From assembly GCF_029870285.1 (NCBI RefSeq), contig NZ_JACSYA010000004.1, forward strand, positions 62,001 to 126,000: a stretch of DNA of 64,000 nt, written 5' to 3'. Positions 665 to 26,612 of this stretch are shown here, in pieces. The DNA is from Delftia sp. PS-11 (lineage in GTDB: Bacteria; Pseudomonadota; Gammaproteobacteria; Burkholderiales; Burkholderiaceae_C). Every line of letters begins with the position of its first letter. The stretch's first letter is position 1. The notes beneath the pieces are model-generated. The model was given only the letters and a program-made list of their open reading frames with translations, was not told where the DNA came from and did no database searches. A program made the translations under genes and the position numbers.

Positions 665-786
665 GAACCGCTAACACAACCCTTGATACGTCGTTGCTTC
701 GCCTTGTCGTACCGTTTGTACTGCCTGCGGCTTCGCGCCTCGTCTCAACCGCAAATCTTCGATTTGCTGGGTCGTGTTAGCGGTTC
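665..786. repeat. 122-bp dispersed element, copy 1, flanked by TTA
   Basis: An element with 18-bp terminal inverted repeats (left arm GAACCGCTAACACAACCC at 665-682, right arm 769-786, one mismatch). It contains a perfect 7-bp hairpin GCAAATC-TTC-GATTTGC at 751-767. The identical sequence, with one base changed, recurs at 26032-26153. TTA stands directly on both sides (662-664 and 787-789). The right-hand TTA is the complement of the TAA stop of the REC-GGDEF gene. It could be a MITE-like or REP-like unit, or a transcription-ending structure. Bases 586-661, between it and the MFS start, show nothing recognisable. Confidence 0.9.
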
Positions 787-25874: not shown

Positions 25875-26031
25875 GGGTATGTCTCCTCCTGGTGCACCGC
25901 CGCATGTGGCGCGCGGCCGTGCCTTGTTTTGGCGGGCAGGTGCCGCCTGTGTTGGCTGGCGCCGATCTTAGTGTCAGGAGGGGGTGCGCAATGTCATGGC
26001 TGTTTTGCGCAAAAGTGCCGGCTGGTATTTA

Positions 26032-26153
26032 GAACCACTAACACAACCCTTGATACGTCGTTGCTTCGCCTTGTCGTACCGTTTGTACTGCCTGCGGCTT
26101 CGCGCCTCGTCTCAACCGCAAATCTTCGATTTGCTGGGTCGTGTTAGCGGTTC
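26032..26153. repeat. 122-bp dispersed element, copy 2, flanked by TTA
   Basis: Identical to the copy at 665-786 except G to A at the sixth base (GAACCA for GAACCG). It has the same terminal inverted repeats and the same internal hairpin (26118-26134). TTA flanks it at 26029-26031 and 26154-26156; the right one is the complement of the ybeY stop TAA. Orientation relative to the upstream gene is the same as in copy 1. The remaining spacer (25875-26028) shows nothing else. Confidence 0.9.
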
Positions 26154-26612
26154 TTACTTGGCGTACGGGTCCTGAAAACCCAGCTCTGCCATGATCTCGG
26201 TCTCGTAGGCTTCCATTTCCTCGGCGTCCTGTTCGCTGGTTTCGTGGTCCCAGCCCTGGGCGTGCAGCGTGCCGTGCACCAGCAGGTGCGCGTAGTGCTC
26301 CTCCAGCGTCTTGTTTTGTTCGCGTGCCTCGCGCTCCACCACCGGGGCGCACAGCACCAGGTCGGCCATGACGGTGGGTTCCTGCTGGTAGTCGAAGGTC
26401 AGCACATTCGTGGCGTAGTCCTTGTGGCGGTACTCGCGGTTGAGCTGCTGGCCTTCCTCGGCATCGACGATGCGCACGGTGATTTCGGCATCGGCAGCCA
26501 GTGCGTGGCGTATCCAGCGCGTCACCTTGCTGCGCGACAGCACGGCGCGGTGCGCGGGCGCCTCGGCAAAGCGCGCGAATTGCAGGGACAGTTGCAGTTG
26601 GTTCAGTGGCAT
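26154..26612 (-). CDS. ybeY: Endoribonuclease YbeY (rRNA maturation)
   Basis: A 152-residue metal-dependent RNase needed for 16S rRNA 3' processing and ribosome quality control. The zinc motif is [11 protein letters not shown] near residues 113-123, and [16 protein letters not shown] is the second conserved block. It follows the PhoH gene by 46 bp on the same strand, the widespread ybeZ-ybeY order. The usual CorC gene (ybeX) is absent after it; the 122-bp repeat begins at its stop codon instead. Confidence 0.96.

Follow-up and report, generated by a model that had tools for sequence, protein, structure and literature searches.

Two nearly identical copies of a 122-bp sequence lie 25 kb apart in the window, the 64,000-nt stretch of Delftia sp. 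PS-11 DNA analysed here, raising the questions of what this sequence is, how it reached both sites and whether it acts there. An earlier note, made from the letters alone, had described copies at 665–786 and 26032–26153 that differ at a single base, with 18-bp terminal inverted repeats and an internal 7-bp hairpin, and each of these points was confirmed. Specifically, the difference lies at position 670 (G in copy 1, A in copy 2), the terminal repeats of copy 1 (665–682 on the plus strand and 769–786 on the minus strand) pair with one mismatch, and the hairpin reads GCAAATC-TTC-GATTTGC (751–767, plus strand). Each copy is laid out as an 18-bp end, a 66-bp core (683–748 and 26050–26115, both on the plus strand), the 7-bp hairpin and a second end. 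A repeat finder listed the terminal arms of copy 1 as 19 nt with 95% complementarity; it did not list the arms of copy 2, the left end of which carries the one-base difference, and the ends of that copy were placed with the end pattern (26032–26049, plus strand, one mismatch to the pattern; 26136–26153, minus strand). The end pattern, which also locates the ends of copy 1, occurs four times in the window, versus 0.02 expected. The element folds with z-scores of −7.0 and −8.6 on the two strands.

Two features absent from the earlier note place the element with respect to its targets. Flank comparison reveals TTA direct repeats on both sides of either copy, the left ones at 662–664 and 26029–26031 and the right ones at 787–789 and 26154–26156. 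Furthermore, both copies abut a stop codon exactly: the right TTA of copy 1 is the TAA stop codon of a minus-strand response-regulator/GGDEF gene (787–1851), and the right TTA of copy 2 is the TAA stop codon of ybeY, which encodes an rRNA maturation RNase (26154–26612, minus strand). Simple scans found neither a sigma-70-like promoter nor a T-tailed terminator around either window copy, and an Rfam search of the element matched no family.

The 5.44-Mb draft genome of the host (80 contigs) contains 26 matches to the element, comprising 14 copies of 122 bp (98–100% identity), nine of 150 bp (77–81%) and three fragments. The nine 150-bp copies (L015–L023) carry two extra stretches, which seemingly pair and would lengthen the stem. 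Of the 23 full copies, 18 (13 short and five long) lie between identical 3-bp flanks, always TTA, TAA or TCA, and because these flanks are TNA triplets duplicated around the repeat, it is nearly certain that the 122-bp repeat is a transposed, non-autonomous miniature inverted-repeat transposable element (MITE). It is short and multicopy, has terminal inverted repeats and duplicates its target, as MITEs do. Among 100 genomes, host included, 50 contain matches: 45 of the 53 from the genus and five of the other 47. Of the best copies in relatives, 29 were inspected as loci, and in 18 of these the two 3-bp flanks are the same, TNA in 17 and TTG in one. The search of the genome and its relatives proposed in the earlier note thus returned many copies, not a pair confined to this genome.

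Presence and absence can be seen at orthologous sites. For ybeY, present in 52 genomes, the gene end was inspected at 30 loci of the genus; the core model matches at two of these, in the host and G004, and at none of the remaining 28. None of the 30 loci offers a perfectly clean empty site; the nearest is L247, which is unoccupied and shares its downstream DNA with the host, with ~50 bp of other sequence between. In G004 (L271, 1978–2042), a second species, an element sits behind the ybeY stop codon that copy 2 also abuts, but is turned the other way, with TAA and TCA as flanks. The MITE reading, one of several options in the earlier note, is supported by the target duplications, the copy number, these mostly unoccupied orthologous sites and an insertion sequence (IS) with similar ends, described below. 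Another of its options, a REP/BIME-like unit, for which the mover would be a RAYT tyrosine transposase, would suit an imperfect hairpin present in many copies at gene ends. Movement by RAYT is not known to leave target duplications, the lack of which is a defining feature of REP/BIME units, and we reject this identity as highly improbable because 18 of 23 host copies have 3-bp duplications, together with terminal inverted repeats.

Lone end-like matches elsewhere in the host did not prove to be the ends of a hidden autonomous element. Those on contigs C6 and C80 resemble MITE fragments, and the one on C7 lies beside a transposase fragment. There, the element end at C7:65763 (L080, near 1764) directly adjoins a transposase fragment of another type, which we take to be IS3-type. 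The distinct ends found in G097 were likewise set aside, as they recur only at the two known copies and at four matches with two mismatches.

A transposase gene bordered by the same terminal repeats, which the earlier note had suggested seeking, was found in part: there is an IS5-family IS with similar ends, but the ends are not identical. The host has eight DDE_Tnp_1 genes, one of which, on C56, lies between ends GAGTGGCTAACACCAC and GAGTGGCTAAAACCAC, and this is the only IS of the host with such ends. The C56 copy (~828 bp) is probably decayed, because its frame is split and it is ~45 bp shorter than its relatives. Related IS5-family genes occur in 30 of the 100 genomes, all among the 53 of the genus, and by our own reading ends of this type are present at 19 of the 30 IS loci. 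In 15 of these 19, both ends could be placed by pattern, giving lengths of 872–875 bp, and where both flanks were available (14 loci) they are identical in ten (eight TAA, one TGA and one TTA). The 274-aa open frame of L114 matches DUF4096, DDE_Tnp_1 and the NCBIfam model NF033580, ‘IS5 family transposase’.

Seven IS left ends agree with seven chosen MITE ends of the genus at 12–17 of 18 positions, and IS ends agree with the host's own MITE ends at 12–15 of 18, versus 12 for the best of 100,000 random 18-mers. By eye, the likeness stops after ~17 bp. Because the sequences differ beyond this point, the MITE is ruled out as a deleted copy of the IS, and its interior is not derived from the IS5-family IS. 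From the likeness of the ends, an IS5-family transposase is nevertheless the likely mover of the element.

The interior of the element has a different affinity. A search of a plasmid collection returned three matching records, none covering 80% of the query, of which two are chromosome-sized gonococcal records with 34 and 32 matching places. One of them (L057, NZ_CP119140.1) is a 2.17-Mb gonococcal record filed as a plasmid, the size of which suggests a chromosome. The gonococcal match has 83.8% identity over query bases 8–80 (E = 5e-11), and the matched place is a Correia element (CREE/NEMIS), with ends that agree with the strings printed in the accessible text of PMC9778887. An end-to-end alignment with this Correia element scores 88, versus a maximum of 42.5 in 500 letter shuffles. 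On the evidence of this alignment, the 66-bp core is homologous to the core of the Correia elements of Neisseria, and the host element has the make-up of a Correia element apart from its different ends and an additional hairpin, the one at 751–767, which is missing in the aligned gonococcal element. By its core, the element belongs to the same superfamily as CREE; by its ends and target, it is not a CREE. The earlier note had recognised no named family, which holds for the ends, the target duplication and the hosts, but not for the core.

Among the places listed (100 of 138), the gonococcal record shows no IS bounded by CREE ends. A single wider pair is listed, at 496593 and 498498, and it was dismissed as a candidate because its first end opens a Correia element that is ordinary but for an altered right end. 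The copies in N. dentiae (L325 and L350) have ends TATAGTGGCTTAA and TATAGTGACTTAA, which by eye lie between the CREE ends and the IS end GAGTGGCTAAC. CREE has promoters at its ends and an IHF site in its long form, for which no counterpart was found in the 122-bp form: no sigma-70-like site was detected, and the published IHF string is absent from it. In the accessible parts of the literature, Correia elements are described as unique to Neisseria; their mobilising mechanism was called undetermined in a 2009 paper (PMC2649163), and the transposase of the IS5-family IS1106 was suggested as their mover in a 2009 review (PMC3898611). We found no relatives of Correia elements outside Neisseria in print, in a search that covered few subscription journals, and a literature search with core strings returned no title on bacterial repeats.

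A model of the core (R1) extends this kinship well beyond the host. Within the order, R1 matches 134 of 399 genomes, from 69 of 158 genera, and within the phylum 39 of 398, from 27 of 212 genera, with 27 of these 39 outside the order. Some genomes are common to both searches, the E-values are rough and many of the outside-order matches are weak, scoring below 42 bits. Most genomes outside the host genus have no match. A scan of named genomes gave at least 118 stretches, and the 80 listed include Comamonas, Acidovorax, Variovorax, Cupriavidus, Ralstonia, Janthinobacterium, Chromobacterium, Vogesella, Aquitalea, Cardiobacterium, Pseudomonas and Neisseria dentiae. The copies L276, L289 and L345 resemble the window copies, which suggests that the window genome is close to Comamonas. 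The core is common to elements with different termini in different families. Among 76 named cores with recognisable terminal repeats, 17 have identical 3-mer flanks, all TNA, versus 6 in the control; many copies outside the genus are therefore without a visible duplication. In Janthinobacterium sp. 344 (L346, 5938–6675), four cores of the same orientation lie ~217–228 bp apart, resembling a small tandem array. Weak ~82-bp model matches in other classes (L210, L213 and L214), with a longer hairpin and ends CCTGTTCACAATTG, may be a separate repeat family.

The earlier note had also raised a structured RNA family and proposed a covariance test, which reveals pairing kept by compensatory change. 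In 30 genus copies, one per genome, there are 45 double-changed cells, versus 13.6 in shuffled alignments, with double changes in 17 of 46 pairs and the internal helices (2–5) participating. Alignment A2, with 38 cores drawn from the genus, Neisseria and five further families, has 106, versus 36.2, with double changes in 13 of 22 pairs; it omits 7 of 45 cores (L071, L075, L078 and the Correia copies L139, L151, L154 and L156), and its 14 genus rows were hand-picked from 52 copies. The 89 distinct named cores (312 double-changed cells versus 98) and 48 other cores (246 versus 81.6) were aligned by fitting to the model and lean towards it. In each of the four alignments, slid controls give far lower counts. 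Extra pair types show no clear excess over shuffles in three of the four, their count being reached by 386 of 500 shuffles for the 38 cores, 394 of 500 for the 48 others and 34 of 500 for the 89 named. Wobble pairs were dropped as a strand indicator because the overall excess of G-U over A-C (268 versus 65) reverses without three fixed pairs (30 versus 63).

The core is near-fixed in sequence near its GTAC-loop-GTAC tip, while its stems are kept by compensatory change. A covarying core so conserved is a candidate new structured RNA family, as far as pairing goes. An Rfam search of 13 core loci, including a Correia copy, returned only a neighbouring tmRNA.

Many copies lie at gene ends. In the host, 8 of 14 short and 2 of 9 long copies abut a stop codon exactly (open frames of at least 100 codons), and the exact offsets are balanced between the two sides, four and four, with one further stop codon upstream at 17. 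In 29 genus relatives, the stop codon lies upstream (17–18) in 16 and downstream (36–38) in 8, and 64 other loci have 29 stop codons at 17–21 upstream. Among 83 named cores, a stop codon lies 15–22 nt upstream in 34, versus 7 for the 23 positions that follow (p = 3e-14), and mirror positions downstream hold 12, versus the 34 upstream (orientation p = 0.0016); these counts use open frames of at least 130 codons and offsets and mirror positions chosen after seeing the data, and some of the cores are not independent (four are in the L346 array, and some Cupriavidus sites are similar). A rival explanation is a plain, functionless IS5-type MITE, the ends of which are kept alike by the transposase and the stop-codon placement of which reflects the choice of TNA sites and the loss of gene-breaking insertions. 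The TNA duplications, the balanced orientation in the host and the patchy presence at ybeY (2 of 30) would fit such an element, while covariation that reaches the internal helices and not the ends alone, a core that recurs in several families between differing ends, and the sense bias of the named sample, read with its post hoc mirror positions, make it doubtful.

Recurrence behind particular genes bears on a further possibility, that the core arose long ago as a structured cis-acting RNA element of Proteobacteria and has been kept by vertical descent, working in mRNA at the ends of genes such as pstB, while the Correia and window lineages added IS-type ends and, as a secondary gain, mobility. 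In another family, f55, pstB has a match in 58 of 59 genomes, and among the best 30 inspected as loci, a core of at least 39 bits lies directly behind pstB in ten, from seven genera, all in the sense orientation. Three further f55 loci (L193, L197 and L204) also carry the core behind pstB but were found through the core itself. Two further genera of the host's family carry the element at the end of infB (L196 and, judged by likeness, L198), and at L195 it follows iscS; the genes following pstB, infB and iscS are presumably phoU, rbfA and iscU, respectively. Along with the wide distribution, the pstB and infB loci favour vertical descent, yet the other 20 of the best 30 pstB loci have no core of at least 39 bits (one scores 20.7 bits), and insertion could recur at one stop codon, as at ybeY. 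One such locus, L234, holds a seeming remnant without a core. We regard this possibility as a tentative one, short of our preferred explanation. If it were true, Correia elements would be neither unique to Neisseria nor primarily transposons.

The explanation that we prefer, and consider probable, is a Correia-type MITE, the conserved structured core of which would function in mRNA. The element would consist of two modules, ends of the IS5-family type and an imperfect hairpin of 66 bp that shares ancestry with the Correia core. An IS5-family transposase (DUF4096 plus DDE) would act on the ends in trans, inserting the element at TNA sites and duplicating 3 bp, and since TAA and TGA stop codons are TNA sites, insertion at a stop codon would duplicate the stop and leave the gene intact. 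The element would then be transcribed together with the gene ahead of it, and the core would act as an mRNA hairpin, either as an RNase III substrate or as a stability element, as published for Correia elements; action of RNase III on CREE is reported in the accessible text of PMC2649163 and PMC2229807. We lean towards this RNA role with less assurance than towards the mover, by analogy with that action and on the conserved pairing, the stop-codon position, the sense bias and the pstB recurrence. Against the explanation count the agreement of IS ends with the host's own at only 12–15 of 18 positions, the shortened host IS, the counts of extra pair types, the balanced orientation of the host copies, wobble pairs that favour neither strand, and the missing matches in most genomes outside the genus and at 20 of 30 pstB loci. 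With homologous cores in many genera outside Neisseria, in one of which an IS5-family element has similar ends and TNA duplications, both the transposase and the RNA role would become testable in ordinary laboratory bacteria.

Links of Correia elements to RNase III and to IS-like movement are of long standing, so the new parts here are the host range, the core shared by elements with differing ends and the stop-codon position. Compared with known systems, the IS5-family IS of the genus (NF033580, 872–875 bp) resembles the MITE in its similar ends and TNA duplications and is unlike it in encoding a transposase and, by eye, in its sequence beyond the first ~17 bp. REP/BIME units likewise form hairpins at gene ends in many copies, whereas target duplications and long terminal repeats are the element's own. 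RUP of Streptococcus pneumoniae, as described in the accessible text of PMC2229807, is also a MITE that was linked to an IS because their ends are alike, in that case IS630-Spn1 with a TA target; we liken it by description only. The closest system is CREE, which shares with the element the homologous core, small size, inverted-repeat ends, lack of coding and, as far as the accessible descriptions go, two size classes per genome (122 and 150 bp here, ~107 and 155 bp in Neisseria). Unlike the element, which has ends GAACCGCTAACACRACCC and duplicates a 3-bp TNA, CREE has 26-bp ends TATAGTGGATTAA, duplicates TA (in the accessible text of PMC3898611), lacks the extra 7-bp hairpin, has a long form of another type and is hosted by Neisseria.
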